Shown: positions 411 to 62,538 of the stretch, piece by piece | How the letters are laid out: every line of letters begins with the position of its first letter | Numbering within the stretch: the first letter of the stretch is position 1 | NCBI GenBank assembly: GCA_015179025.1 | Contig: WHUX01000001.1 | Span: 62,001-126,000, forward strand | Length of the DNA stretch: 64,000 nucleotides | Source of the DNA: Terfezia claveryi | Taxonomy: Eukaryota > Ascomycota > Pezizomycetes > Pezizales > Pezizaceae | Direction of reading: 5' to 3' | Program-made: the position numbers and the translations under genes | The notes under the pieces: model-generated | Told to the model about the DNA's origin: nothing | Seen by the model: only the letters and a program-made list of their open reading frames with translations | Databases searched by the model: none

Positions 411-3169
411 GATAGCTAGATGAGCGAGAAGCTTTTGAGTAAGACGGGATATCACTGGGATGTGTGTGATGAGGAGGGAAGGGAACAATGTGGGCATTAC
501 GAGCATCTTTATACCCGCTCATCACTAACTACGTTAATAGAACTGAGCTCCCTTTCGGCTTCACAGCCACTGATGGGGGATTTCGATACTTAATTAGGTT
601 GTGATCGATATATTCTCAAGGTACGGATAGATGAGGTAAAGTGGGTCCAACGACTTCAATAACATGCCCGGATTAGGTCAAAATTCATGCGGGGTGTGCA
701 GGGACAGGGGAGATGAATATTCTACTATATAGGGGGTTCGATTCAATTTTGGTCGGAGCGGCGTAACTATCTTTAGTCACACGATGTCAGCTGGGGCGTA
801 CGACAGATAGTTGTGAGTAAATACTTCGATAGTGTCGACTAACGGCAGGTGAGTTCATACCTAGTCTCGCGCTATCCACACCTATTACTCAATTTATTTA
901 GGGAGTATAAACAAGCACAATCCGCCAAACTTCAAGGCACGACATATCTTCCCGGGTGAAAGTTAAAGTTGAAACACTCCATATATTTTGATTCGTTCCC
1001 CCATCTGTTGTGATATCGGTTCCTGCTATCTTGATACCAAAAGCACACTTCCTTGATGGTTTGGTGAGAGCTCCAGTAGGGTGAAGTTCTCCGAATTGAG
1101 TGGATACTGATGATCATCACAAATCCATAAAAAATAATGACCACCACCGGAATACTCGGCTGGACAATTTGAGGCCAAGCGGGAAAACATTCTATTGTGT
1201 GCCTTGGTTACACATATGAATTGTTAAAGTTAACTATACATAGGTGTCAACAAGTTCCAAATGTTTGCCTTGAAGTTTAAGCATACTCCATAAACATGGA
1301 TGACAGAATCAAGTGTATATATGATCCAGCCTGTGTCTATCCATGACCATATATATGCTGTTACCCTCTGTCAAAATGTCATCGAACCCCCTTTAGGCAT
1401 GAATCGTGACCACCAACACTATCCAACGTCACCTTCAGTTAGATTCTGTTCTACTTGTGCAAAATTATTGATACTTGACTATTGGCAGTGAGTGGCACTC
1501 TCATTTTGGTCGTTTTGAGCATCCTACAACTAACCTTACTTAACACCATTTGATGTATTCTATTGCAATGATGAGAGTTCTCACTGTGTCACCTGCCAAA
1601 CGTCATCCGATGTGCATTTCCCGGGTACCGAGGGTGTTGTGCCAACCAGACTATGCACTTCAGAAGTAACAATTTACCCGTTTAAGCTTGGCGCGGGAAC
1701 TAATCAGGCATCCTGCGGACGCTATACCATAGAAGGAATCATCCTCGGGAAATAGTGGCTATTATTAGACAACTTGAGAGCCTCGGCAGCTTACCCCGGC
1801 ACCGAATGACTTCGAGCGGCGAGCGAACTTTGTAGGTCATGGGGACCGGGCCTTGAAGGGTGAGATAAATCAATCGCAAAGTGTAAATTTGAGTGAATTC
1901 ATCTACATAGGGAGCGAATTGTACTACTATTCAAAGCGCAAGCTTGAGTTGTTGGTGTGAAGGAGCGAAAACAGGACCCCTGGCAACACATTAAGCAGTG
2001 CTGTACCACTGATGTCTTATGGAGGCATCTATTTATTCTTACATTCTTTTGATATTCAATAATCGATATTGATTGGTTTCATAGTTGGCGATCCTATCAA
2101 ATTAATATATGTATATGCGAAAGCGTTCAAGAAGAGAGGCTTCTAGATGCAACTCAAATGAAAAGGAGTGCAATTGAGAATTCATGATTATATCATATAT
2201 CTAGTATTGGAGCCATATCGGCCTCGAGCGGTGATACGGCATCAATACTCCGTACACAATATTACCTTCCAAGTTTTATGATCTCGTTATATTATGATCA
2301 GTAACTATGATTAGTAGATCGCCAGCTAGTGCCGCTGCAAAGATAAGGTTTGTTCAATTATGCATGTAGAGAAGTCAAACAGGTTCAGTACACGATCAGC
2401 GCGATTTGCACAGCTCTTTCTGAGAGGACAGGATGTCTCCTTTGGCAGGTATAGTGTGAAAGCCTGCTCCAGCTTCGTGTATCACGTGGACCCTGTTAAA
2501 AAATAGTATGTCCTCTTAGATGACACGTTACGGTAGGCCAGCTGCAAGCTTCACTAGCTCCCTAAGATAAGCTGATAAACGAGATACATAGATCATGGAT
2601 TGTTTGAATAGCTGCCTTTGTATTCCCATGACATATTGTTATCGTCCTTGAGCTCCCTCACACTGCTAAACAACCCACCCTATAGACTGTATTCTAGGCC
2701 ATCCTTGTTCGCTATACGCAAAACACCGCAAAAATGGCCAAAAGTGCCCTCTTATGGAAAAGTCCTCAGCTGTGCTCGCTACTTAAGACCATCATAGAGA
2801 ATTAACAGCTTAACTCACTCCCATATATTGATCTGAATATGTATTCCGCTATTCAAACTCGTCAATTTCCATTCATAAATTGAATCGCCGACAATGTAAT
2901 TTGAGTGAGAACATTATTACCTGTAAAATATATAAAAATATATATATCCATATTATATGTTCTTGTAATGGATATATGCATTCTAAGTATAGCTCACCGA
3001 GTACAGGTAATATATTGGAGCTCAAGGGTCGAGCGCCAGGTCCAGTTAGTCTCATGGACCAGTAAAATAATTCACCGTGGCATGCAGGGGTTACATAAGC
3101 TAAAAATGTGGGATTTGACATGTGCACCACCTAGTCTCATGCCAAGACCCTCCTGCCAAGGGGTTCTTC
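411..3169. other. Gene-poor stretch upstream of the cerato-platanin gene
   Basis: No gene can be supported here. On the reverse strand around 960-1200 a short open stretch has protein-like composition (phrases such as TDITTDGG), but it is interrupted by stops and has no clear start or splice sites. One micro-insertion lies at 1613-1661. Otherwise the DNA is AT-rich and unstructured. Confidence 0.5.
1613..1661 (+). repeat. Micro-insertion of the TAGTCTGGTTGGCA family (33 bp, 8-bp direct repeats)
   Basis: Flanks TGCATTTC (1613-1620) and TGCACTTC (1654-1661) match at 7 of 8 bases. The 33 bases between them end in GTTGTGCCAACCAGACTA and share 24 terminal bases with the copy at 3869-3902. Confidence 0.65.
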
Positions 3170-4166
3170 GCTAAGCTTGGCGTCTTCAATAGTTCTCTTT
3201 TAAGACCAGTCAAAAATAATAGCAAAGAACAATGGGGTTTGTGAACGTTTTGTTTTGTTCACACACGCATATATGTATTTATACCTCGAAGATTTCTTCC
3301 ATCTTGGTGAAGATGAAGATGGAATCTGATAAGATTCTGCCTATAATAGAGTCACGTGTGCCATCTTAAACTGGCTGATTTAAGACGCTGCCACGTCCAG
3401 CCTCTGTTGTATTTATTACCCTGAACACTTCTGAGATAGCTCGATTGATAATAACTGAATATACACCAAGTGTGCCAACCAGACTACAAGTTTACTACAA
3501 GTGACGTTTTATGGATATTAACTGGTTAGTTAGCTATTGTTGTTTATGGCGCAGTGGGTTGGGTTGGGTTCAACTTTATTATATTGGGATATCAAAGTTC
3601 CTATTCATACTTAAGAAGGTTGAGTCTTATTCCTCTTCTATCTACTACATCATCTCTCGGTATTATCTTCCTTTTGCCAAGATACTAGATACTAGCCTCT
3701 TTTACTAGTCTTTACTAGCCTCCCCGTATGCCAAGCTCGAGGGTCGGGTGCCGAGACTATCCCGTTCCCAGTCCATCTTCTTTTCCTTCACATACTTATC
3801 ATATTTCAATGCCAAGCTCGTCAGTGCCAAGCCCGCGCAGGTTCATGGTAATAAATACAACAGAGGCTCCTCCAACAGGAGGGTGTTGTGCCAACCAGAC
3901 TAACAGAGGCTGGACGTGGCGTCTTAAATCAGCAGTTTAAGACGGCACACTGACTTTATCATAGGCAGAATCTTATCAGATTCCATCTTCCATCTTCACC
4001 AAAGATGCAAGATTTCGAGAAGTCTAATACTATTGCTATATGAGCTGGTATGAATACATATATGCGCGTGTGAACAAAGCGTTCATAAACGCCATTGCTC
4101 TTTGCTACATTTTTTTGACTGGACGCGGAACGTCTTAAAGGCGACGTTGAAGATGCCAAGTTTAGC
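3170..4166. mobile_element. Non-autonomous DNA element with ~260-320 bp terminal inverted repeats
   Basis: The left arm (3170 to about 3425) begins GCTAAGCTTGGC. The right arm (about 3841-4166) is its reverse complement, beginning GCTAAACTTGGC. Similarity runs through the whole arm, including matching TTTAAGAC, AGCAAAGA and GGAATCTGATAAGATTCTGCC-type blocks. The ~415 bp interior has no coding potential. No convincing target duplication was found, so the superfamily is open. The right arm carries a 43 bp insertion absent from the left arm (see 3860-3911), so that event is younger than this element. Confidence 0.8.
3860..3911 (+). repeat. Micro-insertion, 34 bp, perfect 9-bp target duplication, empty site known
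   Basis: ACAGAGGCT at 3860-3868 is repeated exactly at 3903-3911. The 34 bases between them consist of a small hairpin (CCTCC, AACA, GGAGG) followed by GTGTTGTGCCAACCAGACTA. The opposite arm of the host element has the uninterrupted sequence (AGCCTCTGT once, at 3399-3407), which identifies the pre-insertion state. Confidence 0.85.
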
Positions 4167-4194
4167 TAGAAAATTTGCGGTTGGGGAATCCCCT

Positions 4195-4234
4195 GGCGTG
4201 CACCTCTCTACGAGAGGCTTGTACTAGGCGTGCA
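4195..4234 (+). repeat. Micro-insertion, 24 bp, perfect 8-bp duplication
   Basis: GGCGTGCA occurs at 4195-4202 and again at 4227-4234. The 24 bases between them form the hairpin CCTCT-CTAC-GAGAGG followed by CTTGTACTA. This has the same layout as the 3869 copy, with the CCAACCAG part of the tail missing. Confidence 0.75.
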
Positions 4235-4637
4235 TATGCCACGGTGAAATAATTAGCCTTACTTGGAAATTCCTTAGAAGGTAGTCGTACAAAGTCACTA
4301 TGTGAAGTTGAATATGTGAAATGGTTTGGCAAGATAGCCTCCACCTACCTCGTCACTCATCAAGCTCATACTATCTACGTGAGTACTGTATTGTACAGGC
4401 AGAGGAAAAAGTTCTCGATTAATATATATATCCCCTACGGAGATTTGACTACTTCCGTCCTATATATCACCCATCACGACGGCTAGCTGAGGCCGACAGA
4501 CCATTTTCCCAAAACCCAACTTTCACCATCGAAGTTTGACCCTCAGAATCAAAGAGCACTTCTCCAACCGAGAGGTAGATACTACGAGAACCCCCTCGCT
4601 TATCAGCTGGTACCAGCATCAGGCATCAATATACACA

Positions 4638-5564: not shown

Positions 5565-6890
5565 GGTTAGGTAGTGACTGACAAGTGATCATGCTTCCGG
5601 CCCGTACGGCTTTAGCAGATTTATGTTTGAGGGCTGCTGAAAGTTAGATGTTCCAATTCACTTATGTCTGGGATTCTGGCCAGAGCTCAATTGAAGATTC
5701 ATTTAGTACTGGTTTTATTGTAATTCATTCATTCATTCACCACTTTTATTGTGAAAATATGGGCATGCCATAAATGAGAGAGACAGAGTTGTGAGTGACT
5801 CTATATAGCTGTTACCCCGATATTGATTGACCATAAGCCCCATCGACTCTCCCGAAATTTGGACTATGCATATGTGATGTCATGTCTTTGTCTGGGGTCA
5901 ATTTACTGCTAAAATTCTAGCCATTCCCAAAATATTAATAAATCCTTAGAACCCCGGAATTCAGAGATTATCAAAAATCTCCAACTTTACAGGTTATAAT
6001 ATATTCAGCTCAACGAGTGTAGTACGCAGGCAATGCAAAACTCACAAGAGGTCAGGGTACATCACGCTACCATAGAAATTTGTATTAGAAGGTAATTTTT
6101 CTCCTAATCTCAACCATCTCTATAATCCAAATATTGATGCCTTTGCCCGACGCCTCAATTTTTAAAAGGAATAAGTATTTTGAAGGGAACTCCAAGGAAC
6201 AGCTTCTGTCGTTCTGGCTTTGGTTTCATTCGATGACCTTGGAAGGTCCACTCCTTCCTTCCCCCAAATTTCCCCCATTATTCAATTGCAGGCTTTATAC
6301 GAACACTGGTTAGGAGTTGGAATTTCTGGTTTTGTGTGAAAGGTTAGGAGGGGAATGGGACTAGGATTGGAGTTTTTAAGAGGCCTCAATGGTGAACAGT
6401 TAGGATGGGGGCGTGTAATAAACTATGCTATCCTACCCGATCGTCCAATTATTACTCGTACAACCGCTTGGCATGGGTGGAATATCCTGAACCCGTGCTC
6501 AGGCGACCTACTTACTGGAATTGTTTAGCTTGATTCGGAAATCAACATCTAAGTCAGTTGGTCTTGTGGACCTTCGCGTGGAATCACTTCTGAAGTTCTC
6601 AATGATTGTTCTTACTAGTACCTTTTTAGTGTCATAGGTAAAACAGGGTGCTCCCTCAATCCACTATAAAGGTAAGCTGTACGTTCAAAAGATTCTGCAG
6701 CGCGAGGTTATTCAAGCACAGTTCTCAAAACCCCAAGCTGTGACAGTTAATTAGCTCTTTAAAGCACGATGATTTTCCTACCACCTAAGAACTAATCATT
6801 CAGATACCATCTCCTGGCAACAGTCATTCCTCCTCTTTTCCATGATGTATCTCCACCTCCTTTCCACTTCCCCCTCCTCGCCATGCTGAT
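5565..6890. other. Intergenic, no feature seen
   Basis: This holds the presumed 3' UTR of the coiled-coil gene, including a short ATTC tandem near 5720, then unstructured DNA with no open frame of note. A LINE 3' tail follows at 6891. Confidence 0.5.
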
Positions 6891-7000
6891 TAACTTGCCT
6901 GGTCCGAATTCACCCGGGTTTCCAGGTGGCTCCTCATAGTCCCCTTACTGGGACCGAATAGGAGTAACGAGTATTTAAAAAAAAAAAAAAAAAAAAGAAA
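6891..7000 (+). repeat. Tad1-like LINE 3'-end fragment with poly-A
   Basis: TAACTTGCCT, a conserved CACCCGGGTTTCCAGGTGG block, GGTCCCC-type palindrome, ACTGGGACCG and GAGTA are followed by a ~20-base A-run. The same block ends the LINE copies at 62335 and 63455, so this is a severely 5'-truncated insertion. Confidence 0.65.
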
Positions 7001-7599
7001 CTCCCCCCTCTTCTTCACAATCCCGCAACAATTACACCTAGGCCATAGTCGCAAGGCTGTATGCCACTCATGTATTTAATAATAAATACGAAAGGATTTT
7101 TTTTTAAAAAAAAAATTTACACCTCACCCTAGCACAAAAATACATCGCATCCTCAACAGCCACCTGCGATCCTAGACTGGTTGCCGCGATCCCTTAATTC
7201 GATCATCCTCCCAAAGACACCTGCGGTTGTTCCGGCACCTGTATTATCCCCTCCGTGACTGCGTCTAGTCTGCATGGGGGGCTTTACTTAAGTCACGTTG
7301 CCCCTCTACCCATCTTAAGTGGTGTCTTTGTGTATGGGAGAGTATGAGGTGTTTCTTCTATACACCATATAGATAGGGTAATGATATATGGTTGGGGGGA
7401 ATCTATATCCGAATCTTTGCAGCGGACAGCTTAGTCTGGCGGGCACCGCCTCTCGTAGAGGGACAGCTGCCAACCAGAGCTTAGCTATGTGACCCGGAAA
7501 GGAAGTAAGCGAGAAACATAAATATTAGTCACGAGATCGTAGAAAGCCTTGACCAGGTGGTTACCAGTATCAGTGGAGATCTATATATAAGCTTATGGG
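7001..7599. other. Intergenic, one micro-insertion
   Basis: A T-then-A homopolymer patch lies at 7098-7116. The only other structured item is the micro-insertion at 7424-7468. No coding region is supported. Confidence 0.5.
7424..7468 (-). repeat. Micro-insertion, 29 bp, perfect 8-bp duplication
   Basis: GGACAGCT at 7424-7431 is repeated at 7461-7468. The 29 bases between them begin TAGTCTGGCGGGCACC and end GCCTCTCGTAGAG, the reverse-complement orientation of the 4203 copy, with which it shares GCCTCTCGTAGAG. A further partial motif (GCCAACCAGAG) follows directly at 7469. Confidence 0.75.
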
Positions 7600-7611: not shown

Positions 7612-7614
7612 TTT

Positions 7615-7696
7615 GGCTGTGCACGGAATCGAACCGCGATTGTATCGGACCATCTGCAATCCACAACGATACGTGCTACCATTACACCACACAACC
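7615..7696 (-). tRNA. tRNA-His (GTG) with a ~12-nt intron
   Basis: The reverse strand folds as a cloverleaf. Acceptor GGTTGTG pairs with CACAGCC (one G-U). The D arm is GTG...CAC around AATGGTAG-type loop bases. The anticodon stem is TATCG/CGATA. The T arm is CGCGG-TTCGATT-CCGTG, containing the B-box consensus GGTTCGATTCC. The anticodon loop is 19 nt instead of 7, which is explained by a 12-nt intron at the canonical site one base 3' of the anticodon. The loop then starts TTGTGG, giving anticodon GTG (His). CCA is not encoded, as expected. The intron position is inferred from the fold; a different anticodon would need a non-standard loop. Confidence 0.8.
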
Positions 7697-23143: not shown

Positions 23144-24939
23144 ATCGATATCTACTTTCCCGTTTGCTCTAGGAACAGGAACACGGACGAAGCTGTAAGA
23201 GTATCCCAAGTTTGTAGCGGCCGAGGTGACCGTCTAGGAGACGAGCTTGCTCAATTGTTTCCCCAAATTCGCGACAGCGAAAACAAATGAGGGGAAACCC
23301 AGGACACTTGCAAAGAAGCTCCATTTTTATTTCACTATCTTTTAAAAAAAAAGAAAGGCAAAGTGATTAAAGCCATAATCTCCACTTGAGTTCGTGTCAC
23401 ACACCTACTTAAAGTTACAGTCAATTAACCCTATCTACCTGTGTAACCCTAGATGCAGATTGTGGACAAAGCAGGTCCGCAAATCCTTGTGACCTCGGTA
23501 GGTAACCAACCAGAGTGCTTGTGTTCGAGAGTGCTGACTACGGTAGGTATCGGTACGGTATTCTGGAGAAGTCATCCTTATTATGATTATCCACTTAGTC
23601 TACATACTTGACTAGGATTGCCCATAAGCGATTCTCTACTGTAATTCCGTAATTCCTAGTTAGGGCTTTTGATGCGTGGGTGGTACCGCATCAAAAGCCC
23701 TAGGAATGGGATAATCCCTGCCAAAACCCTCAAGTCAAACCCTCAAGTCACGCCAAGCTACTTACCCAAAGGCTCAACTTTAGTCCTGTAAGGAGGGACG
23801 AGTGATGCTTCTAGGTCTCGAGATAAGCGATAGATGTAGATTGGGAGCCGCCTTCCCGATTCGCTTGCAGGAACCGCATGGCTTTCAACTTTGCAATGGG
23901 CATTGCAGGATTGCATAACCATTAATGTGCACGTGCACGGTAGTTAAGTATTTGTATACCTAATTTTGACCGTATGTCGCTACAGTATGCGACCGATCAT
24001 ACATTCTAGTCTAAAATCCCCGGCCAATACCGGTATACCAAGCACCCAGTCTCAGGTAGTCTCGATCAAGTCTCAGGGCGTGGATTATGACGAGTAATGG
24101 GGAAACTACCCTATCACTAGGTACTGTAACTAGTGTTTCAAGCATAACTATTAGTGGGCCGAGTGGACTTAAACTATTGGGAAATATATTACAAGTGTAA
24201 TTATATTTTCTCAGGTGAAGTTAGCAAGGGCCCATGCATCTTGTTCCTGGTTTATCTCGGGGAGAGAGTAATATAAAGACTGTGAGCAGCCGAATGATTG
24301 CTTTGACTTGCTATTTGAGGTCTAAGCAAAGAATATCTAGAATATTCTTGCATACAAGCACTACAATCACTACTACCTCTAGGTGGGTTTCAGGGGTAGT
24401 TTTTGACTTATCAAGATCCCTATCAAGGATGGTATGCCAGATATCCTGAGAGTCAGTCGCACGACAGCTAGAATCACTAGGTAGATACCTATTGTATTTG
24501 GAAAGCTACAATAACTACCGTACTAGTACATGATGGAGCTACATGTAAGTAGTCTCGACTGCAGCCACAAATGGAAATTTTCCATTTGCTGCGGAGTAGA
24601 GTACCTGCATGTGCAGGCTTACGATTGTTAATTTCGACGTACATGACACGTGTATAGAGCACGCTTTTGACATTTTAAATTATTCATTTGACATCGTAGA
24701 GAACCGAGTTATTCGCTAGCGTTATTTCAATGTGAGCTACATAGCAAGAGTGTTTCTGTTGAGCTTAACTAAGGAACTTCACCAGAAGGATGCGATCTGC
24801 CTCTCCAACAGGTTTAGATTTGTCGAGCATCAGCTGCCATCAGGATTTGGCCATACAAATATACCTTGGCGCACTACCGGGTATGCAGCTCACATTGAAA
24901 TTACGCTAGCGAATAGCTCGAGTCTCTACGATACCTATA
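23144..24939. other. Intergenic
   Basis: Contains the hairpin at 23652-23707 and scattered AGTCT motifs near 24006-24072. No gene is supported; frames around 24732-25061 begin at a non-ATG and contain a micro-insertion. Confidence 0.45.
23652..23707. repeat. 21-bp perfect hairpin with a 4-bp indel in one arm
   Basis: ATTCCTAG and GGCTTTTGATGCG on the left pair perfectly with CGCATCAAAAGCCCTAGGAAT on the right around a 10-base loop. The left arm has four extra bases (TTAG). It is probably a tiny foldback element. Confidence 0.7.
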
Positions 24940-24969
24940 CCCTGGGTGCCAATCAGACTACCCTGGAGG
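24940..24969 (+). repeat. Micro-insertion, 12 bp, 7/9 flanking repeat
   Basis: CCCTGGGTG (24940-24948) and CCCTGGAGG (24961-24969) flank CCAATCAGACTA, a one-mismatch copy of the CCAACCAGACTA end. Confidence 0.55.
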
Positions 24970-25507: not shown

Positions 25508-25539
25508 CGTGTGAAATAGTCTGGTTGGCACGTGTGAAA
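25508..25539 (-). repeat. Micro-insertion, 14 bp, perfect 9-bp duplication
   Basis: CGTGTGAAA at 25508-25516 and 25531-25539 is identical at all nine positions and brackets TAGTCTGGTTGGCA, the core motif alone. Confidence 0.85.
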
Positions 25540-25570
25540 GATAGGCAAGCCAACTAGACTAGCTAGGTAA
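25540..25570 (+). repeat. Second micro-insertion directly adjoining the first
   Basis: GATAGGCAA (25540-25548) and GCTAGGTAA (25562-25570) match at 7 of 9 positions and flank GCCAACTAGACTA, an inverted, one-mismatch copy of the core. Confidence 0.55.
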
Positions 25571-26838: not shown

Positions 26839-26890
26839 CCGGTTACCTAGTCTGGTTGCACTACCCCTCGCAACCAGACTACCGGTTATC
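26839..26890. repeat. Micro-insertion, 34 bp, palindromic ends, 9-bp duplication
   Basis: CCGGTTACC (26839-26847) and CCGGTTATC (26882-26890) match at 8 of 9. The 34 bases between them start TAGTCTGGTTGC and end GCAACCAGACTA: perfect 12-bp inverted termini around ten bases. Confidence 0.85.
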
Positions 26891-30636: not shown

Positions 30637-30668
30637 ACACCACGCTACAACCAGACTAACACCACGCT
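30637..30668 (+). repeat. Micro-insertion, 12-13 bp, perfect 10-bp flanking repeat
   Basis: ACACCACGCT at 30637-30646 and 30659-30668 is identical and brackets ACAACCAGACTA. If the duplication is 9 bp the insert is TACAACCAGACTA. Confidence 0.8.
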
Positions 30669-31626: not shown

Positions 31627-31678
31627 AGACTATGTCCTGTTTGGCGTGGGGCTTGTGCCAACCAGACTAAACATATGT
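31627..31678 (+). repeat. Probable 34-bp micro-insertion with eroded flanks
   Basis: GGGGCTTGTGCCAACCAGAC followed by TA ends at 31669. Counting 34 bases back gives flanks AGACTATGT and AACATATGT, which agree at only 6 of 9, though the last five bases are identical. Confidence 0.45.
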
Positions 31679-40077: not shown

Positions 40078-41846
40078 TCAATAGGCATGAGTGCCCACAG
40101 CGGCCACCACCTCGAATGGACCCAGAAACTTATGATCGAGCTTGCGAAATGGCCGTTCCATCTGGAAGTGCCTGCTGGAGAGCCACACCTTATCTCCTGG
40201 CTGATACTTAGGGGCTAGCAACCGTAATCCATTAGCATATTCGGCTTGCCTGGCTTGCGCATATCCCAGCTCGGCTTTCAGGGTAGAGTGAAGTTCAGAA
40301 ATCTGCGTGGCGAACTCCTTAGCTGGGGCGTTCTCCCTGGCCTTGCGCAGAGGTGCCAGGGAGTCTACGAACCGAGGGTGCCAGCCATAATTGGCCAGGA
40401 ATGGGGAGGTCTTCAGGGTCTCTGAGAAGTGGTTGTTGGCGGAGAATTCGCAAGTGGCCAGCAATGAAACCCAGTTATTCTGCTGGTAATTGATGTACGC
40501 CCTCAGATATTGTTCCATGATGGCGTTCATACGTTCTAACTGGCCATCAGTCTGAGGGTGGTATGCCGTAGACAGGTGTATTTCGATACCCAACAGCTTA
40601 CAGAATGTTTTCCAGAAGTCGGCGACGAACTGAGGGCCACGGTCTGAGACAATCGACGCTGGGAGGCCATGGTAATGGAAAACATTATCCAGGTAGAGGG
40701 ATGCCAATTCGGGGCCGAGCAGGTGTCTCGACAGGGTATCACATGCCTCATTTTCGTTAACCGATCCACTACCATCAAGATGGCGTTGAATCCCGAGTCT
40801 TCCAGCAATCCGGTGACGAAGTCCATAGTCAGGTGTTGCCAGGGTTGTTCTGGGACTTCCAGAGGCTTCAGGGTACCATAAGGAGCATGACGGGTGGGTT
40901 TGGCACGCTTGCAGATATGGCAATTCTGTATATACCGCTCCACTTCCTTCCATTAGTCAATCCACGTATATTGCCTGGACAGCAACTCTAACATCTTAGC
41001 CACTCCAGGGTGACCCGCTGCCAGTGTGTCGTGGTGTTTCTTGATCAATCGCAGGCATAGCTCATCGTCTGCAGGCACGTAGAGGCGGTCCAGGTGATAG
41101 AGAAGGCCGTCCTGAGTCGTACACTCGGCTAGGGAAATCTTGGTGTGGCGGCGCTGGCCAGAATCCACTGCGGCGATAATGTCTTTGGCCAGTGGGTCCT
41201 CCGCGTATGCCCTTTTTACCTGTTGTCGGAGATCACTTCCAGCATCTGCATCATCCTCGACATCCATGATCTCAGCTTCAGCCTCAGCCTCAGCCAGAAC
41301 GTTGGCGGCCAGGTCAAGATTTTCCGGCTTCAGTACCACCTGGTTCTGGTATTTTAGCCTTTCATCCCCCCCCTTAGGGAGATCTCCTGATCTCCTGGTC
41401 AGTGCGTCTGGTTTCCTACCAGCCTTTCCAGGCCGATACTTGATCTTGAAGTTGAATCGAGATAAGAACTCCGACCACCTAGCCTGCCGTCGGTTCAGCA
41501 GCTTAGTGGTGGTGAAGTACTCAAGATTCTTATGATCGGATAGTACCTCAATAATCCCCTTGGCTGACTCCAGGTGTGGCCTCCACTCCTCGAATGCTCG
41601 CACAATGGCCATTAACTCCTTATCATAGATTTCATAATTACACTCCGCCGGAGAGTGCTTTTTTGAGAAGTATGCCACTGGGTGGAGGATGCCGTTCACA
41701 TGCTGGGACAGGATTCTGGCGGACACATAGTCGGAGGCATCTGTTTCTATGATACACTCGCTGTCGGGGTCGAAGTGGGCCAGGATCGGGGCTGAGCAGA
41801 AGGCTTCCTTGAGTTTCTCGAAGGCAGATTGGGCTTCCAGACCCAC
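40078..41846 (-). pseudogene. Gypsy RNase H and integrase, frameshifted
   Basis: RNase [46 protein letters not shown]. Integrase: the H..H..C..C zinc region (HHDTLAAGHPGVAKML, then CHICKRAK), catalytic blocks TMDFVTGLLED and IVSDRGPQFVADFW, and STAYHPQTDGQLERMN. A frameshift or stop lies near 40945 and another near 40700, between the first and second catalytic aspartates. Confidence 0.92.
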
Positions 41847-43497
41847 TGGAAGCGTTGGCCCTTTTCCATGCCCTTGGTCTTGGTTAATGCTGTCAGTGGT
41901 GCCACGATCTTCGAATATCCCAGAATGAACCGGCGATAGAAGTTAGCAAAACCCAGGAAGGCCTGAACGTCCTTGAGATTGGCGGGGATTTCCCATTCCT
42001 GGATTGCCGCAACTTTGGCAGGATCCATTCTGATGCCTTCTGTTGTTATTATCAAGCCCAGATACTTCACCTCTTGGACGTGGAATTCGCATTTTTCGGG
42101 CTTTAAGTACAACCCTGCTTGTTCCAGCTTTTCCAGGACTCGTCGGACGTGGATTTTGTGCTCCGCCAGGGTATCCGAATAGATTAGGATATCGTCTAGG
42201 TACGCCGTGCAGAACACATCAGGAAGTCTCGTAGGGTGTCATTAATAAAGTGTTGGAAGGAGGCCGGGGCGTTAGTTAGGCCGAAGGGCATCACATTGTA
42301 CTCGAAATGGCCATATCGTGTCCGGAAGGCAGTTTTCCACTCCTCTCCCTCGGCGATCCGTACTAGGTTGTAAGCCCCCCTCAGATCCAATTTGGTGAAC
42401 CACTTTGCTTTGGAAAGCCTGGCTAATGTCTCCTGGATCAGGGGTAAGGGATACCTGTTTTTGACCGTTATCTCGTTCAGGCCACGATAATCAACACATA
42501 ACCGAAGGGAGCCATCCGACTTCTTCACGAATAGCACGGGGGCACCTGCTGGGGAGGAGCTGTGGCGAATGAAGCTCTTGTTGAGGTTTTCCTCCAAGTA
42601 TTTTTTCAGAGCTTCCAGTTCCACCCGGGACATCCCGTAGAGAGGTCCATAAGGGGGGGTCTTACCTTCTACCAGCGGGATTGTGTGGTCGTATGGTCGG
42701 TGGGGGGCGAGCTTTTCCGCAGCTTTTTCCGAGAACAGGTCAATGAATTCGTGGTATTCGTCTGGAACCATGGATTTCCACTCCCCCTTAGACCTTGTCT
42801 TGTTGATTTCCAGGTTTACGTCATGTATGGAGAGGGCATGCGCCTTCAGCTTGTGCCTCCTAGTGAGGTAGGCGAAAGCCCCGGCTCCAATGAAGTTGAT
42901 ATTCAGGGGTTTTTGGGGTGCGAGAGGGACATCGGGAGCAGGGGAAACAAGGGAAACCGGGGGATTGGTGGCATCGATGTACGCGGCCTGGTGTACCACC
43001 TGAGTTGGGTGGATTACGGGGGGCGGTAATGCACACAGACCAGCGATGGTGGCCTTCGGCTCTCCGCAGTATTTTCGGCAGTAAGGGCTATTAAAATGCA
43101 GGGTATAGGAGCCAAAGCTGACCGATACATCGTGCATCCTAAGCCATGGGATTCCGAGGACAATTGGATACTTGAGCTTTGTAACGAACATAGGGAGGCT
43201 TTCGGAGTGGTCCCCAATCTGGGCAGGAGTACATGCGATATCGGTAATGGCTCCAGAAGAGATAGGTCGGCCATCAATGACATCGAGGAGGCGGGGGGTT
43301 TTGAGCTTAGAGGTGGGTATGGCATGTTTACTGACAAAGGCCTGGTCGATGAAGGCAATTCCTGAGGCTCCACAGTCTACGAGAGCTGATGTGACGAGTG
43401 TTTTACCATTGAAGGATATCGTGATAGGTACAACAAAATGCTCACCAAACAGGTGAGACTCGTCAACAGACATAGAAGGAACAGAAAAAGACGACAA
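41747..43497 (-). pseudogene. Gypsy protease and reverse transcriptase, frameshifted
   Basis: The protease region has ALVDCGASGIAFID, where the usual DS/TGA catalytic triplet is DCG. RT blocks include VKKSDGSLRLCVDYRGLN, FTKLDLRGAYN, FRTRYGHFEYNVMPFGLTN and, after a single-base deletion near 42217, [14 protein letters not shown] with the YLDD active site. A second shift follows near 41846. The enzyme cannot be made from this copy as it stands. Confidence 0.93.
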
Positions 43498-56725: not shown

Positions 56726-56842
56726 GCGGGAGGCATTCAGGCAGAACACGCTAATAATTTTACTATCCTATAAAGGAAAAGCAGCAGCTTAGGCATCTAG
56801 GTAGCTGCTTTAGAATAGAGTAAAGGGGCTCGTCATGACGAG
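56726..56842 (+). repeat. Left terminal inverted repeat of the MULE
   Basis: About 95% identical by eye to the reverse complement of 59090-59200. Confidence 0.88.
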
Positions 56843-56852
56843 ATGTTCCTAT

Positions 56853-59013
56853 TTACAATTCCCACGGCCTATGTCTATTTACAATATCTTCAGCACGAAC
56901 ACTCGTCAAACTACCCAACGTGACTTGTACATGATTAGCCCATTCCTCCATTCGCTGACTTTGCACTGTATCGTCTAGATTAAGCTGATCCATCAACTCA
57001 TATGCTGTATAGAGCTGCTGTTGTACCTGCTCAAAGCTTTCCCGCACCCGACTAATAATATTTGCTCTCTCAGCATTCCAGCCACTACTCTCATTTTCAA
57101 CCCATACAGTACCCATGGTCTCATACACTTCCATACCACACTCTTCAAACATCATCAAGTACACCTTCTATTGCACTGTAGTCAACACTTTGATTGCAGT
57201 ATCAAGATGAAATATATGTCGGCATGGAAGTAAGTATTGTCTATGGAACTTGCAGTAACACTGTATATTCTCATCAAACCTAGGCAACTCCTTCCCCTTC
57301 GCTATTCGCTCCTCAACAGCATCAAGCTTACGAGCAAGTAATTTCTGAATAGGAACTGGCAGCTGATCTATTTCTGCATACTGTTTTGTACAAACAGCAA
57401 GTTTGCGATTTCGGAAGTGACTTTTAGCCACTTCAGCCCGATTGTCAACATCACTCGAGCATCTATAATATTCAAAATCATGCCATAAATTCACTTGCCC
57501 TTTAGACAGCCCTGCACCAGACTTCAGCTTGCGATGCCATGCCTCACAGGCATTTGTAGTAGTAGCTTGCAGGAGGAAAGGGCTATGCTGCCGAGCATAC
57601 ATTGCCCACTTGGGTGCAGTCTAAAGCTAGTAGGTACGAATGTATTTTGCGGTTTCTTCGTCAGCAGCTGCAATTGCCTGTTCATACAGCTCACGATTTT
57701 TGATCTCAGTAAAGCAGTACATGGCGTACTTGAGAAGCTGATATATAGGCTTATTGGCATTAGAGCCAAGTCATCGGAGGAGAGTTCAGTTGGAGTGAAC
57801 AGAGCAAAGAAGATGAGCTACCTCCTGCTCACCTGCATCAAGACCCTGGAAATACCAGGCGGATTGCACGCTGTTCAATTACAGAATCATCGGTCATGAT
57901 ATAACGTGGCTGCCATTTACCTAGAATATATGATATTAATATAGGGAGTTCATATGGCAAGCTCATATAGCGGGTTTCTATAGGAGATTCTGAAATTCAT
58001 ACATACCACTACACCTCTGCTGTATATGTCTTAATCTTTCAGCAATAATATCTCCATTCTCTTGCTCAACAACCAAGTGCGCAGTTGGAATCCATAGATT
58101 ATGCTTATTATGAAGAAATGAAAACATGTTATGACCCCACCGGTTGAGCTTATGCGTAGCATCAAATTGCGTAAACCAGCCTCGCCTTTGCAGTATCAGA
58201 AGCCTTATAGGATGAGCAAAAACCAATCCCCATCTTTGCTCCTTCTTACTATCGACTACATGCAGCTGTTCAAACAACCAGCCTCGTTCCGTTAACAACC
58301 TGCAAGCATGGAGAACATCATCCTCAAACAGTTTGCCATGTGGAAGCACCCGTAGGTCTGCTGAGCCTAATCCCCGCTTTAAATTCCTGATATCTTGTCT
58401 ATACACCGAATCCATTAGCTATATCTGAGTCATATCTCATTAGTGAACATAGTTATACGAATGTTTTTAAAGACGAGCCACCAAGCTCTTTCAACCGCTC
58501 AGAGCCTTCATGTGTACCTGCGCCATGGACAGCATGGTAAATCTGAGCAGCAGAGTAATTTTTAGCTGCTTCAGCCTTGATATACTCTACTAATATGCTT
58601 GGTTTTTTTACTCGGAAGCTCTCCTCAATATCACGGGTATGGGTATGTTCATCAAGGCGCTCAACCGTTACTGCTGTACCGTCAACTGGATGCGAGACCT
58701 TAATTCGGACGTTGCAAAGGTCGGCATTTCGAATACTGCTCTGCCGACGTTTAATAACCTTGCCATCGGTATCTGCAACTCGAGCGATGCTTGACTTCTT
58801 GCTTTTCCGAAGCCTGCACTCATATTTCTGAACACGTACTATACCATAAGCTTGCAGCAGCTCTTGCTGAAGCTTTGAATAAACCGAATCCACATACGGC
58901 CATATCTCATCAAATATTTGAGCGGATATAGTAACTGGTTTGCTGAGCTCGAACAATAGAGTGCGGTAGTGCAGAGCATCAGCAGAGATTGGCATCATGG
59001 CTTCAGCAGACAT
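56853..59013 (-). pseudogene. MULE transposase with SWIM zinc finger, inactivated
   Basis: The start MSAEAMMPISADALHYRTLL is at 59013. An N-terminal DNA-binding-like region ends GGSSLKTF. A possible 40-base intron (58458-58419, GTATAACTA...GATATAG) joins it to LMDSVYRQDIRNLKRG. The DDE core begins FTQFDATHKLNRWGHNM (first D) and TAHLVVEQENGD. A second intron (GTATGTATG...TTCTAG, about 58005-57917) leads to YIMTDDSVIEQRAIRLVFPG (second D region) and HLLCSVHSN. The core ends with a SWIM finger CYCKFHRQYLLPCRHIFHLD. A one-base shift after VFPG and stops near 57765, 57750, 57630 and 57168 disable it. Overall length (about 650 codons) and order match fungal Hop-like MULEs. Confidence 0.85.
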
Positions 59014-59089
59014 TTTGATTTGATCACGAATTTGCAGCGATATGGTATTTGCGGTAACATCGTATTTGCGGCGACCTCGTCAGGGCCCC

Positions 59090-59200
59090 CTCGTCATGAC
59101 CAGCCCCTTTACTCTATTCTAAAGCAGCTACATAGATGCCTAAGCTTTTCCTTTATAGGATAGTAAAATTATTAGCGTGTTCTGCCTGAATGCCTCCCGC
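59090..59200 (-). repeat. Right terminal inverted repeat of the MULE
   Basis: Partner of 56726-56842; directly followed outside by the 21-base ATTCCCGGGCAGGCCAGAAC-A repeat unit. Confidence 0.88.
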
Positions 59201-59749
59201 CGATTCCCGGGCAGGCCAGAACACTAAATATATCTAGGCACTAGTAAAGCCAGATCTAGTTTCGCTATCCCCACTCCTAACGGTACAGTATATACTCAGG
59301 TCCGGTCCCCTTTATCCTATTCCCCACAATAAGTTCTTAATATAAGTAATTATTATATGTCTGAACTCATGTAGGGTATAGTCTTCGATCGTTCGTCGGC
59401 TCAGGGTACTTATACGTGGTGTTCACATATTGAACCTCATAACGAGATCTACATATTTGCCTTGAACCATAATTACAAATTCCCTGTATGTACTGTACAT
59501 CCCCAGAAGTACAACTTGAGTTTAATATCAAAGATGGAGAGCCCATAAAATTATTTGTCTAAAGGTATAGTGCTTACAATAACTATCTCCAAATATTTTA
59601 TATATTACATATTTTGTTCTATGTGTATTCTACTATATTAGGCAATGTAACATTAGGAGTATGCTTGATCATGAGCCAAAAAGGGACCAGACAAGCAACC
59701 AGAGCGAGCTTACTCCGAAGTGTAACTCGATCTTTTCAATTTATAAAAA

Positions 59750-59845
59750 AAAACTCATTACTCATATGCCGTTAGGGGGGCCATGATGAGCCACCCGGAA
59801 GCCCGGGTGAAAACAAGGCAAGTTAATCTGCCAGGCCGCGCTATA
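59750..59845 (-). repeat. Tad1-like LINE 3'-end fragment
   Basis: The reverse complement reads CTGGCAGATTAACTTGCC, CACCCGGGCTTCCGGGTGG, CTCATCATGG and CATATGAGTAATGAG with a T-run, as in the other LINE tails. Confidence 0.7.
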
Positions 59846-59929
59846 CGTCGGGTGTGGTCGGGGTGTAACTCAAACGCAGCTGAAGCGCGGCCGGAACCAT
59901 TGAGACTTTTTATTCTTTTTATTCTTTTC

Positions 59930-60008
59930 TTTTTTAAAAAAAAAAATCAATACTCATATGCGGTCCCGTTGGAGGGACCATGATGATCCACCGGGAAATC
60001 TGGTGGAT
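59930..60008 (-). repeat. Tad1-like LINE 3'-end fragment
   Basis: The reverse complement carries GGTGGATCATCATGGTCCC, CAACGGGACCGCATATGAGT and a T10A6 homopolymer end. It lies ~85 bp from the previous tail in the same orientation. Confidence 0.7.
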
Positions 60009-60924
60009 TAAGGAACCATTGAGACAGGTCTACTGTAGCTACAGAAGGGTAAGAAGCCGGAATAGCTATTGGAGCGCGTTATTCAAAGCTCCCACAGTTG
60101 CACGACCAGAGCCCAGGTATACTTATTTAGCGGAACCTATTTGCAGCATGACCGGAGCCTATAGATACAAGCCTACCTACTGCCTATAGGAAGAAGGTCT
60201 ACCTGCTACGAGCGTGTAAAAGAGTATGAGAGGCAGAGCACTCACTATGCATAACACAGGAGTTCTTGCATAGACCCAGAACATGCCTAGCACATGTTCC
60301 ACTAAACGGAGGACAATTCACGGGAGTATCACTTAAGCGAAGGACATTTCAAAGGTTTTCTCGAAGGGCACATATAAGCGACTGGATCGCACCTATGTTA
60401 CATAGATTTTGCCTTAGAGAGCACTTGCACCGTAGCATATAGGCCTATAGTGATATGTAGCATCAATTGCTCCTACTGTACAATACATACATCAAGCCAT
60501 TTACCTGCAAAGATTCCTTCCCTCATAACCTCATAATCTCACGTATTCTACTTCACACATCAGACAATAGCCTTTTTATTTTGCTTGCTGAGTTGCTTGA
60601 ACCTATCCGACCTTAGGAGCATTTTCAATATACCCCATCAGCTGACCGATTTAGGAACTTTTTGATATTTGGCCAAGGACCACCAGAATCCTGTGAGATC
60701 AATGTCATTGAACATTGTAGATGTAAGAGAACAAGGATGATACCCCTCTCCAGCACTTTCGTCATTCGCACGTTGGGAGGATGTTATAGTTGCACCTTCG
60801 CTAGCGCTGATCGGCATGTTTCACTTTTGGGCAGGGATTGTACGAAGGCAAACTCAATGCATATCTAGACGTAATAAGATGATCTAGATTAAGATACTTG
60901 GTTATACCTCTATCTCCATTGCAT

Positions 60925-61848
60925 ATGGGGTACAAAACGGAAAGCGAATTTGAAGCTCACTCCAAATTATCCTTCCCAAGGCTCATATACGAAAAGTATC
61001 GATCCGACACTGCATTTGAAACGTTCCCAGCGCCACTTATGACCTTGGAAATCGATATCCAACTCCCATCTCCTTCACCCATTTCTCACTCCCCCCCTAC
61101 GACCTCTACCAGCCTAAAATGCACCGTCTACATCCCCAGCAAAACCGGCCCTCTCCCCGAGCCCGCTGCAGCCAGTCTTGTATCAGTAATAAACGACGCT
61201 TTCCGCTGCCTCTGTGATATACCTGGCGGTCTTGGCATGTTCCCCGCATGGCGCACCCGGCTGCCTGGTGGTATAAGCCAGCTTTACAACGAAGTTGGCA
61301 AGGGCTGGTTATTGGTGTGGACACTTGACGGTATGCCCGTTGGGACTGCGGCTATTCGCTCGATAGGGAGAGGGTGGGCCCGAGTGCCAACACAGGAAGA
61401 GGCACATGCAGAGCGGCTGCTTGACGTGCCAATGAATTGTGAGAATTACGTCATTACAGAGAAGGGGAAGACGTTTTTGAGTCAGTTAGAGCAGGAGGCT
61501 GGTATCATGTCATTGTATGAACTCTCGTTAGTGACTGTGGACCCGAGGTTGAAGGGTAAGGGCGTCGGGAGCTCTATGTTGCGAGCTGTGGAGGAGTTTG
61601 TGAACGCGATAGATCTGTCGAAAGGAAGCTTCTGGGTGGTGGAAGAGGAGAAGTTAGGGCGGACTGAGAAATTAGGGGGGACTGAAAAGAAGATGTTGGT
61701 TGCTTTTGTCGTTAATGGGACAGGAAATGAAACTTGGTATGGTAAGAGGGGGTATGAGAATGTTGCTATAGTGCATAAGGACTGTGGATACTGGGATTGT
61801 CGTTTGGAGAAGGGCTTCGACCTCCTTACTATGTTTAAAGAGTTGTAA
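60925..61848 (+). CDS. GNAT-family N-acetyltransferase, 307 aa
   Basis: A single intact exon; the first in-frame ATG is at 60925 (ATGGGGTACAAAACG). An upstream coding exon cannot be excluded because the frame is open for nine more codons. The N-terminal half is variable, with a Pro/Ser-rich loop (about 48-62). The acetyl-CoA-binding motif A is LVTVDPRLKGKGVGSSMLRA (about 202-221), with the R/K-x-x-G-x-G turn. A typical late strand-helix, WYGKRGYENV (about 271-280), follows a charged 20-residue insertion (EEKLGRTEKLGGTEKK). The enzyme should transfer acetyl from acetyl-CoA to an amine; the substrate cannot be told. A truncated LINE lies directly downstream, within about 25 bases of the stop. 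Confidence 0.85.
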   Translation: MGYKTESEFEAHSKLSFPRLIYEKYRSDTAFETFPAPLMTLEIDIQLPSPSPISHSPPTTSTSLKCTVYIPSKTGPLPEPAAASLVSVINDAFRCLCDIPGGLGMFPAWRTRLPGGISQLYNEVGKGWLLVWTLDGMPVGTAAIRSIGRGWARVPTQEEAHAERLLDVPMNCENYVITEKGKTFLSQLEQEAGIMSLYELSLVTVDPRLKGKGVGSSMLRAVEEFVNAIDLSKGSFWVVEEEKLGRTEKLGGTEKKMLVAFVVNGTGNETWYGKRGYENVAIVHKDCGYWDCRLEKGFDLLTMFKEL

Positions 61849-61864
61849 TATCTAGAGCGAAGGA

Positions 61865-62335
61865 AATATTGATGTTCAACAAGTTGAGGTTCGAATGCCC
61901 ACGGTTCGGACGGGAAAGAGCCCTCCTTTTAGGGGACAGGAGCACTTTGGAAGAGCTGGACGAGAAAGAGTGGAGGAAGGAGGGCGAGGAGAGTTTAGAG
62001 GCCACGGAGGCGTTCTTCAGCTATTTATATTATGAGCTCACCCGACCCTCCTACGGTTATTTTTTTAATTTTTTCTTTCTTTGGTTATTTATCTCGTTGT
62101 AGCTCCTCTTGTTCTGGTTGTGTCGCGTCGAGGTTCCTTGGGTTAACGAGCGCAAGCCTGTTACCGGTAATGACAGCACGGGAGCTCGTCGCTCTTTATG
62201 AGTTATTCTGTGTATTTAGTGTCGGACCTGGCAGTTTAACTTGCCTTGTCTCTGAATCCACCCGGGTTTCCGGATGGATCATCATGGTCCCCCTAACGGG
62301 ACCGTATATGAGTAATTAATTTTTTTTTAAAGAGA
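61865..62335 (+). mobile_element. 5'-truncated Tad1-like LINE copy
   Basis: It begins inside the LINE tail region: LRFECPRFGRERALLLGD, LEELDEKEWRKEGEESLEAT and AFFSYLYYELT, then a stop and a ~230 bp 3' UTR. The UTR ends in the shared block (CTGGCAGTTTAACTTGCC, CACCCGGGTTTCCGGATGG, GTATATGAGTAAT) and a T8A3 tract. Flanks near 61862 and 62330 resemble each other over 14 bases (11 matches), a possible target duplication. Confidence 0.75.
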
Positions 62336-62508
62336 AATTCATGTTGAGTATTGGATAAGGTAGGAACGCTATGGTGAAACTAGTTCTACAGTGAGGCTAT
62401 GCCCTGTTCAGGCGATTTATCTCTAACTTCATTTAGTCACTTCATTCGGCTAACCAGACTATTTTGATAAGGGCGATTTTGCTGTGTTTTATTAGTGTCA
62501 GTACGTTT

Positions 62509-62538
62509 TAGGATACTAGTCTGACTTGAGTAAGATAC
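62509..62538 (-). repeat. Micro-insertion, 14 bp, 7/8 flanking repeat
   Basis: TAGGATAC (62509-62516) and TAAGATAC (62531-62538) flank TAGTCTGACTTGAG, a diverged core motif of the same length as the 25517 copy. Confidence 0.5.

Follow-up and report, generated by a model that had tools for sequence, protein, structure and literature searches.

The window, the whole stretch of 64,000 nucleotides analysed here (contig WHUX01000001.1 of the Terfezia claveryi assembly), carries a set of very short inserts that contain all or part of the motif TAGTCTGGTTGGCA or related termini, several of them between direct repeats of 9 bp. We call these inserts scars, one-armed or two-armed according to the number of element termini that they contain. 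The sites are as follows, in window coordinates and with repeat similarity given as matching positions.

1622..1653, minus strand: probable long-arm scar of 32-34 nt; repeats 7/9, not significant alone.
3323..3426, minus strand: paralogous empty site that lacks the insert but has the sequences flanking 3869-3902, aligned at 91% over 104 bp.
3472..3486, minus strand: 15-nt arm TAGTCTGGTTGGCAC, then 5 bp (ACTTG) of the left flank; not significant alone.
3745..3759, minus strand: TAGTCTCGGCACCCG terminus, which the C127 element has at each of its ends; no repeat of 7/9 or better.
3869..3902, minus strand: one-armed scar of 34 bp, TAGTCTGGTTGGCACAACACCCTCCTGTTGGAGG; perfect 9-bp copies of AGCCTCTGT at 3860-3868 and 3903-3911.
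4203..4226, minus strand: 24-bp form TAGTACAAGCCTCTCGTAGAGAGG that looks internally deleted; flanked by a perfect 8-bp repeat, TGCACGCC.
7173..7183, plus strand: short scar of 11 bp, TAGACTGGTTG; repeats CTGCGATCC/CCGCGATCC, 8/9.
7432..7459, plus strand: one-armed scar of 28 bp, subtype TAGTCTGGCGGGCACC; repeats CGGACAGCT/GGGACAGCT, 8/9 (8 bp perfect).
24057..24068, plus strand: 12-bp scar TAGTCTCGATCA; perfect copies of AGTCTCAGG, 9/9.
24946..24960, minus strand: probable 15-nt scar TAGTCTGATTGGCAC; 7/9 at the best register, with the right-hand copy shrunk to CCAGGG; not significant alone.
25517..25530, plus strand: 14/15-nt scar TAGTCTGGTTGGCA(C); perfect CGTGTGAAA repeats at 25508-25516 and 25531-25539.
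25549..25561, minus strand: weak candidate TAGTCTAGTTGGC; repeats 7/9, not significant alone.
26848..26881, no strand assigned: two-armed scar of 34 bp in which two arms of the TAGTCTGGTTGCACTACCCCTC subtype, about 24 nt and 10-12 nt long, are fused at their tails; flanking repeats CCGGTTACC/CCGGTTATC, 8/9.
30646..30658, minus strand: 13-bp scar TAGTCTGGTTGTA; perfect 9-bp repeats GCGTGGTGT.
31636..31669, minus strand: long arm TAGTCTGGTTGGCACAAGCCCCACGCCAAACAGG; no recognisable duplication, best 6/9.
62517..62529, plus strand: weak candidate TAGTCTGACTTGA; repeats 7/9, not significant alone.

With up to three mismatches allowed, the motif has 23 matches in the window, compared to an average of 6.13 for 100 shuffles; not one shuffle had as many. 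An earlier note on this DNA had listed perfect repeats at 3860, 25508 and 30637, which are indeed perfect over 9 bp, and at 4195, where the repeat is perfect at a length of 8 bp; the repeat at 7424, also listed as perfect, matches at 8/9 (8 bp perfect), and the value of 8/9 at 26839 was reproduced. The repeats at 1613, 24940, 25540 and 62509 are at 7/9 (given there as 7 of 8 or 9), but this level is attained by 265 of 1,860 random anchors (about 14%), so that window sites with 7/9 alone are no proof. The site at 31636, suggested as a possible member, has no repeat of 7/9 or better, and the scars at 24057-24068 (12 bp, 9/9) and 7173-7183 (8/9) are additions to the earlier list.

The exact 14-mer TAGTCTGGTTGGCA is present in 3,193 copies in the 72.6-Mb assembly (1,580 on the plus strand and 1,613 on the minus strand), whereas the motif read backwards has no match on either strand of the whole assembly. 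Flanks were compared for 93 exact copies, all from contigs C1 and C2 (the window, 200 kb of C1 and 60 short stretches of C1 and C2). A 9-bp flanking repeat of at least 8/9 was present at 48 of the 93 copies as against 68 of 1,860 random anchors, an enrichment of about 14-fold, and a perfect one at 33 copies as against 22 anchors; of the 33 perfect repeats, 27 measured exactly 9 bp. The other 45 copies fell below 8/9, 12 of them at 7/9. Thus, the insertion phenomenon is confirmed as genuine and genome-wide. Dyad symmetry of the target sites about the centre of the duplication was weak (r 0.354, P 0.01, 82 sites), and weaker still over the central 15 columns (P 0.06). Anchors with a too-simple 9-mer or too near an end were left out of the dyad counts, and also of the 84-row scar table and the counts on A1/A2 arms, CGGCACCCG copies and one-mismatch repeat pairs described below.

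The inserts have one fixed terminus, and the other end mostly lies about 15 or 23-36 nt inside. The earlier note had seen size clusters at 12-14 and 33-34 bp; the existence of two classes holds, and among repeat-flanked copies they are better described as 14-15 nt and 23-36 nt. The mode of the longer class is 31 nt in one subtype and 33 nt in another. The 15-nt arm is a sharp mode (13 of 48 repeat-flanked copies). The long A1/A2 arms have their mode at 31 nt (15/29), at sites mostly picked by a 30-nt pattern; since 32 of the 41 A1/A2 sites came from stretches picked by exact 30- to 33-nt patterns (and another two are the parent's own ends), shorter arms are under-represented in that set. The CGGCACCCG subtype is unrelated to the others past the first bases, yet its arms are of similar length: among the top 16 of 62 copies, 13 had a duplication, one of them two-armed (L160), and the arm ended at 29-34 nt in 10 of these 13 (one of the 10 two-armed). 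Cutting at a hairpin tip was dropped as the setter of arm length because arms of this subtype end at a similar length although no such tip lies there in its TIR. This scar subtype, listed under the terminus TAGTCTCGGCACCCG, matches the C127 terminus; its 62 places are genome-wide, and the duplications of the 13 among the 16 fetched copies are at 8/9 or better.

A single terminus was found in 76 of the 84 rows of the scar table, the other 8 rows being 4 two-armed sites, which are counted once from each end both here and in the counts on A1/A2 arms, CGGCACCCG copies and one-mismatch pairs. Two-ended short copies exist at 178 places genome-wide; among nine such matches examined, five had a perfect duplication and four had none. 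Palindromic copies with perfect duplications measure 51 bp (L101) and 50 bp (L104, L105), with the inverted repeat CCCCTC-GTA-GAGGG(G) where two TIR ends would meet. Its polarity (99 GTA, 1 GTC and 0 TAC among the 100 listed of 127 places) is then trivial, because both TIRs read inward alike. We rejected the 50-51 bp palindromes as the full unit, since the TIR of the parent element shows that the palindrome is possibly two TIR ends meeting. A chimeric two-armed candidate at C57:257314 was likewise set aside; it has no duplication (2/9 match) and may thus be two neighbouring scars.

Among the 40 repeat pairs that differ at a single base, the mismatch fell within the first two bases next to the variable junction in 25 (control 254/1,000). 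The right-hand duplication at 15-nt arms was the full 9 in 11 cases, 8 in 4, 5 in 2 and 4 in 2 (132 sites in all); such shortened copies are few, suggesting that trimming is slight. At arms 12-14 the matches are longer. Across 264 kb there were 5 unfilled tandem duplications of 9 bp, 7 of 8 bp and 2 of 10 bp, and a Markov control had 0, 3 and 1, respectively; this is no clear excess.

A parent element, L132, was located at C135:449886-459000. It is 9,115 bp long, has TIRs of 120 bp that are 100% complementary and start with TAGTCTGGTTGGCACAAGCCCCTCGTAGAGG, and is flanked by a 9/9 target duplication, CGTTCTGGT. This supports the second of the two readings in the earlier note, by which the inserts are footprints or remnants left by one larger element that ends in TAGTCTGGTTGGCA. 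The inner TIR (nt 24-120) matches only its own two ends and two 53-nt partial sequences at 89%, as compared to 3,193 copies of the outer 14-mer; being almost confined to the parent's own ends, it indicates that the inserts are scars and not micro-transposons. Domain profiles, run on 8 of the 12 listed ORFs, identified RecQ-type helicase pieces and DUF6589. The helicase pieces lie in separate ORFs on one strand: DEAD (2.2e-10) and Helicase_C (7.8e-6) exceed the Pfam cut-off, and RecQ_Zn_bind (2.3e-4) falls short of it. DUF6589 matched at 2.7e-20 in one ORF and at 1.1e-4, below the cut-off, in the next. A second element, on C235, is 8,099 bp long and has a similar kind of termini and an 8/9 duplication, GGCGTTATG/GGCGTTGTG. 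The third, on C127, likewise has termini of this kind; it is 8,620 bp long with TAGTCTCGGCACCCG at both ends, and its flanks do not match, giving no target duplication. Thus, there are several parent families rather than the single larger element that had been envisaged. DUF6589 matches lie on 22 contigs, and three full elements were delimited; upstream of other DUF6589 genes, 5 of 8 stretches had no recognisable AcademH terminus. Among DUF6589 relatives D265 is conserved in 11 of 12 and D416 in 10 of 10, and the AlphaFold model of a relative (12 sequences) was too poor to reveal a transposase fold (mean pLDDT 51.8).

AcademH was reportedly defined by Kojima in 2020. AcademH elements are described with 9- or 10-bp target duplications (PMC10045372) and as low-copy in fungi (PMC10799480). 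They have TIRs, a helicase gene and a transposase-like gene. L132 fits this description because of its 9-bp duplication, and it also has the TIRs and a superfamily II helicase (DEAD, Helicase_C). The link of the inserts to AcademH-type elements is well supported; DUF6589 is a candidate for the transposase. MULEs share the 9-bp duplication length, but the MULE parentage suggested by the earlier note did not hold: the MULE domain PF10551, which has 21 matches in the genome, was absent from the 8 tested ORFs of L132, and three MULE-domain loci that we read were rejected. L090 resembles the scars in its perfect 9-bp duplication but has unrelated termini, CGGACTGACTCAGG, which occur at 3 places genome-wide (2 being its own ends; reversed control 1), and no scar cloud; L089 has the motif TAGTCTGGTTGG inside its inverted repeats and not at the end; and L091 has no duplication-flanked inverted repeat. 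The tested ORFs also contained no P-type and no hAT domain. Elements of the hAT type make 8-bp target duplications, and this reading was rejected on the 9-bp length of the perfect repeats and the missing domain. The genome as a whole has 150 hAT domain matches. LINE and SINE retroposons have duplications of variable length and a 3' tail; among the scars, most perfect repeats are of the single length noted above, with no tail apparent in the 84 rows.

We consider it probable that the inserts are scars of AcademH-type transposons, produced by staggered excision like that of the P element and by end joining of one tail. Their sequences correspond to the outermost 7-36 nt of AcademH-type TIRs, in most cases of a single end, and recognisable 9-bp target duplications flank about half of them. 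A transposon would insert, create the duplication and depart later. On excision, the transferred strand would be cut exactly at the boundary of element and duplication, and the cut on the other strand would lie about 15 or 31 nt within the element, as judged from the arm lengths of the products, so that both flanks would bear 3' tails of terminal sequence. End joining would connect one tail with the recessed 5' end of the opposite flank, and trimming of the other tail as a flap would leave a single arm plus the two duplications; if both tails were kept, the rarer two-armed products of 23-51 bp would arise. The mismatches at the variable junction are piled up as end joining would leave them. 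Loss of the tail on both sides would yield unfilled 9-bp tandem duplications, and that these are not clearly in excess speaks against excision.

Footprints of P elements can retain parts of the terminal repeat, flanked by 8-bp duplications. In Drosophila, the P element is cut at its end on the transferred strand and 17 nt inside its 31-bp inverted repeat on the other (PMC7776569). The staggered cut proposed here resembles this one, whereas the duplications are 9 bp long, the tails would be of about 15 or 31 nt, and one arm is retained instead of both.

The main alternative, which we regard as distinctly less probable, is abortive insertion, where the AcademH transposase would join one end to a staggered 9-bp target cut, the body would be severed about 15 or 31 nt from the bound terminus, and the gap would be closed by end joining, no established copy ever being excised. 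Such a process accounts for the obligatory single arm, for the unfilled duplications not being in clear excess and for terminal fragments numbering in the thousands when intact copies are very few, and arm sizes could equal protected footprints. It requires an additional, hypothetical step that destroys the body and spares a fixed stub, however, and two-armed scars with perfect duplications (5/9 of the two-ended copies, and others) fit excision at least equally well. Bacterial Tn3-family elements undergo one-ended transposition, which is replicative and gives long inserts; it shares with the scars one fixed end, one variable end and a target duplication.

It is very improbable that the inserts were copied, with truncation, from a short RNA or from single-stranded DNA, with ...GTGCCAACCAGACTA-3' at its end, at a primed target nick by target-primed reverse transcription. 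One constant and one variable end are reminiscent of 5'-truncated retroposons, but the exact 9-bp repeats, the missing tail and the similar arm lengths of subtypes with unrelated inner sequence argue against it, and the parent elements largely refute it, being DNA elements with inverted repeats whose terminus supplies the constant end. Equally improbable is the reading, a version of which the earlier note had entertained, that the inserts are true micro-transposons (micro-MITEs), 10-51 bp long and moved in trans by AcademH. MITEs bear both TIRs and are usually longer. The inserts are likewise short, non-coding, duplication-flanked and of high copy number, and the 50-51 bp palindromes suit this reading; however, most inserts are of 7-36 bp with a single terminus whereas a transposase needs two ends, the full unit is 8-9 kb, duplications were missing at 4 of 9 two-ended copies, and the palindromes can be read as two joined TIR tails. 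An artefact of sequence or assembly, or chance similarity, has no supporting point and is already refuted by the reversed control, the enrichment of duplications and the parent elements. Overall, the earlier interpretation is partly supported.

The tiny inserts far outnumber the intact elements found. As a tentative extension of the excision model, AcademH might follow a hit-and-run cycle, with an unusually long staggered excision cut permitted at two positions (about 15 and 31 nt), which unwinding of the end by the element's own helicase perhaps determines, and a one-armed scar of defined length left by host end joining at each departure, so that thousands of departures would be recorded, compared to a few dozen elements at most now. 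The portions of the AcademH literature covered gave no account of thousands of one-armed terminal scars, and a search of titles, abstract openings and a few passages, with subscription journals mostly outside it, returned no paper on the cutting and joining of DNA by Academ. The inserts may record how the little-studied AcademH elements cut DNA. If our reading is true, the scars are a genome-scale readout of Academ chemistry, comprising the 9-bp target stagger, the pair of preferred arm lengths and the second junction made by end joining, and a transposon lineage that is rare as intact copies may have hit the genome thousands of times. Being shorter than 40 bp, the scars are likely to be overlooked by repeat annotation; they are dense and directional, and could be used to date activity and to compare strains.

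In the earlier note, whole or partial copies of the motif TAGTCTGGTTGGCA had been placed between direct repeats of 8-10 bp at ten or more sites, and had been read either as a micro-transposon or as what is left of a larger element. Our analysis confirmed this observation and identified a source of the inserts. The window contained 23 matches to the motif (at most 3 mismatches), as compared to a shuffle mean of 6.13. The assembly comprises 72,558,070 bases in 794 contigs (denoted C plus number), with the window at C1:62001-126000. One of its strands carries 1,580 exact copies of the 14-mer and the other 1,613, and the pattern written backwards gave 0 occurrences in the whole assembly. We examined 93 exact copies drawn from three sources: the window, 200 kb of its contig and a set of 60 short stretches. 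In 33/93 copies, the TAG start was abutted by a perfect direct repeat of 9 bp, as compared to 22/1,860 random anchors. Repeats matching at 8/9 positions or better flanked 48/93 copies, as compared to 68/1,860 random anchors. Among the 33 perfect repeats, 27 were exactly 9 bp long, and with the anchor shifted by 1 base 7 or 9 perfect matches remained in place of 33. No flanking repeat reaching 8/9 was found for 45/93 copies. In two runs of C1 that were searched piecewise (60 kb and 204 kb, 264 kb together), 31/117 TAGTCT[GC] anchors had a repeat of at least 8/9. Extrapolated from this one contig, with the 3.7% random rate subtracted and sites retaining both transposon ends (two-armed) counted twice, the genome total is roughly 7,000 sites.

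Comparison with empty sites shows that the short inserts were inserted. For the filled site at position 3860 of the window, an empty paralogue lies at 3323-3426 (91% identity over 104 bp). In a stricter test, a non-self match across the joined flanks was obtained for 5/88 one-armed scars, which retain a single transposon end. Two of these matches, each with approximately 79% identity, were ungapped at the junction (L plus number denotes a fetched stretch with its own coordinates).

Ungapped empty-site matches
Scar L017:6612 (34 bp), matching L017:5680-5818
Scar L017:6134 (15 bp), matching L015:3389-3573

The remaining three were gapped at the junction or extended into other scar sequence, and scar L017:6612 had 3 gapped matches besides. 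The dispersed repeat beginning AATCTGATAAGATTCTGCC, with an empty copy at 3323-3426 and a scarred copy at 3870-3982 of the window, offers a useful natural comparison set; its copy in L097 appeared by eye to be scarred twice. A repeat family ending GCCCCCTATCAGGATCGAACT (L017:5308-5818 and 6490-6692, L015:2871-3027, L016:8745-8885) is tRNA-like by eye and possibly a SINE. At least 150 matches to the hAT dimerisation domain were present in the genome (scoring covered 150 of 182 candidates); internal stops interrupt many of them.

Other features of the window
40078-43497 (-), ORFs of a Ty3-type retrotransposon, matching protease, RT, RNase H and integrase
7614-7696 (-), tRNA-Thr (TGT) gene, approximately 155 bp away from scar 7432

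The constant end of a scar is the TAG at the repeat boundary, and the opposite end is variable. The two size classes proposed earlier were recovered among the 48 copies with a repeat, as 14-15 nt (14 nt, n=5; 15 nt, n=13) and 23-36 nt (n=26), with single inserts of 9, 16, 49 and 58 nt outside both classes. Inserts of 7-13 nt were seen too with shorter anchors. Two-armed sites, joined tail to tail, were a minority (4 sites, corresponding to 8/84 rows). The two-ended pattern TAGTCTGGTTN{0,30}AACCAGACTA matched at 178 places genome-wide and at 0 in the control; among nine matches checked in 8 fetched stretches, the duplication was 9/9 in 5 and at most 4/9 in 4. Arms of the CAAGCCYCTCGTA subtype had a duplication in 29/41 cases and were exactly 31 nt long in 15/29, a result that represents a sharp upper end, because 32/41 had been selected by a 30- to 33-nt pattern. 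The TAGTCTCGGCACCCG subtype, which is unrelated in sequence to CAAGCCYCTCGTA past the first bases, had a duplication in 13/16 cases, of which 10/13 measured 29-34 nt (mode 33; one of the 10 two-armed). The block GTCTGG follows just after nt 31 in the CAAGCCYCTCGTA subtype and at nt 46 in the TAGTCTCGGCACCCG subtype, and TAGTCTCGGCACCCG arms stop near 31-33 despite this later position. The arm lengths look as if measured from the transposon end.

The suggestion that the inserts are remnants of a larger element is supported by a parent on C135 with matching termini and a 9-bp duplication. On this contig, two long-arm forms in opposite orientation, separated by 9.1 kb, are both ends of one element. 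It is flanked on either side by CGTTCTGGT, a perfect duplication, and its two ends are identical beyond nt 31.

Elements with scar-like termini
L132:17-9131 (C135), parent element, 9,115 bp, 120-bp perfect inverted repeats
C235:51350-59448, second element, 8,099 bp, duplication 8/9
C127:52194-60813, third element, 8,620 bp, starting TAGTCTCGGCACCCG, flanks without match

Pfam domain tests covered 8 of the 12 ORFs of the parent. They gave matches to DEAD, Helicase_C and RecQ zinc-binding (the last below cut-off), to DUF6589 in two ORFs reading inward from the right end, and none for a 570-aa ORF. One ORF was 100% identical to BGX38DRAFT_1296301 of Terfezia claveryi over 87% of its length; two further relatives of this ORF were detected, at 48% and at 38% (Kalaharituber pfeilii), and a wider search returned 12 proteins, K. 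pfeilii and Terfezia boudieri among them. The predicted structure of a DUF6589 relative was of too low quality for use. Genome-wide, DUF6589 had 43 matches on 22 contigs, 41 of them above cut-off; a scar-like TAGTCT terminus lay upstream of other DUF6589 genes in 3/8 stretches and was not found in 5/8. According to PMC10045372, AcademH duplications are 9 or 10 bp and those of AcademX 3 or 4, lengths tied to the encoded helicase and nuclease, and AcademH is described as low-copy in fungi in PMC10799480. The parent itself carries one-armed scars of 12, 15 and 15/16 bp with 9-10 bp duplications, at L132:2745-2756 (+), L132:5911-5935 and L132:7019-7043. Two of the three lie within or adjoin its own reading frames; an insertion of 15 + 9 bp preserves the frame.

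The scars match AcademH-type ends, and the short copies comprise the outermost part of the TIR only. Nucleotides 24-120 of the parent TIR matched its own two ends (100%) and two 53-nt partial copies at 89%. The 37-nt terminus (at most 3 mismatches) was found at 17 places, of which 10 diverge after approximately nt 30-34 and 7 keep GTCTGG, namely the parent's 2 ends and 5 candidate ends of further elements. These 5 candidates, at C223:87528, C346:1683, C361:18349, C776:34947 and C785:204587, retain 37 nt of an AcademH end through GTCTGG and may be termini of additional full elements. L143 (C619) and L144 (C38) are letter-identical over the part seen and include an AcademH end with a partial tandem duplication of its outer part; the two stretches arose by recent duplication or are duplicates of the assembly. 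For comparison, a MULE in L090 served as control: its 14-nt terminus was present at 3 places genome-wide, 2 of them its own ends, and thus this other DNA transposon, at least, left no comparable cloud. This MULE (L090, C61:9500-15500; positions 1452-4105) is 2.65 kb long, is flanked by the perfect 9-bp duplication TTGTTGAGG and has inverted repeats, perfect over at least 20 bp, that begin CGGACTGACTCAGG. At another locus (L089, C773:254000-259500), a MULE gene is flanked by long inverted repeats rich in TAGTCCT motifs, with one TAGTCTGGTTGG motif within each arm; in the literature that string occurs in two papers, whose titles point to other topics.

According to PMC7776569, the transposase of the P element cleaves one strand at the transposon end, whereas its cut in the second strand lies 17 nt within the 31-bp repeats. 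An AcademH transposase cutting similarly, with the second strand cut approximately 15 or 31 nt inside, would leave terminal sequence on each flank as a 3' tail whose base is exactly at the duplication boundary. If one tail were ligated directly to the opposite flank at its recessed 5' end, one arm would be kept; the second tail would become a flap, and both duplications would survive. If the tails were instead lost independently, unfilled 9-bp tandem duplications would be common. In 264 kb, 5 were found, whereas tandem duplications of 8 bp numbered 7 and those of 10 bp numbered 2. This low count is explained by direct ligation and also by abortive insertion with one arm obligatory, in place of excision. 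The 45/93 copies whose flanks do not reach 8/9 likewise weigh against the model. We infer excision over failed insertion, with a staggered cut and ligation.

Under the staggered-cut model, scars should have one arm of discrete length between precise duplications, two-armed products should be rarer, and slight damage should be confined to the joined side. Such damage is supported, because single-base differences between the repeats fell in the first two bases beside the variable end in 25/40 cases, as compared to 254/1,000 in the control. A weak dyad symmetry centred on the duplication was seen among 82 target sites, as expected from paired strand transfer (r 0.354, as compared to -0.26 to 0.07 for other axes; column permutation gave P 0.01, and 0.06 with the central columns). 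The lineage is already known; the titles and abstract openings on tiny transposons, footprints and AcademH, with most subscription journals outside their range, described neither such scars nor their mechanistic implication. The best interpretation of the inserts is that they are one-armed scars left by AcademH-type transposons; such scars would most likely arise by a staggered, P-element-like cut followed by direct ligation.
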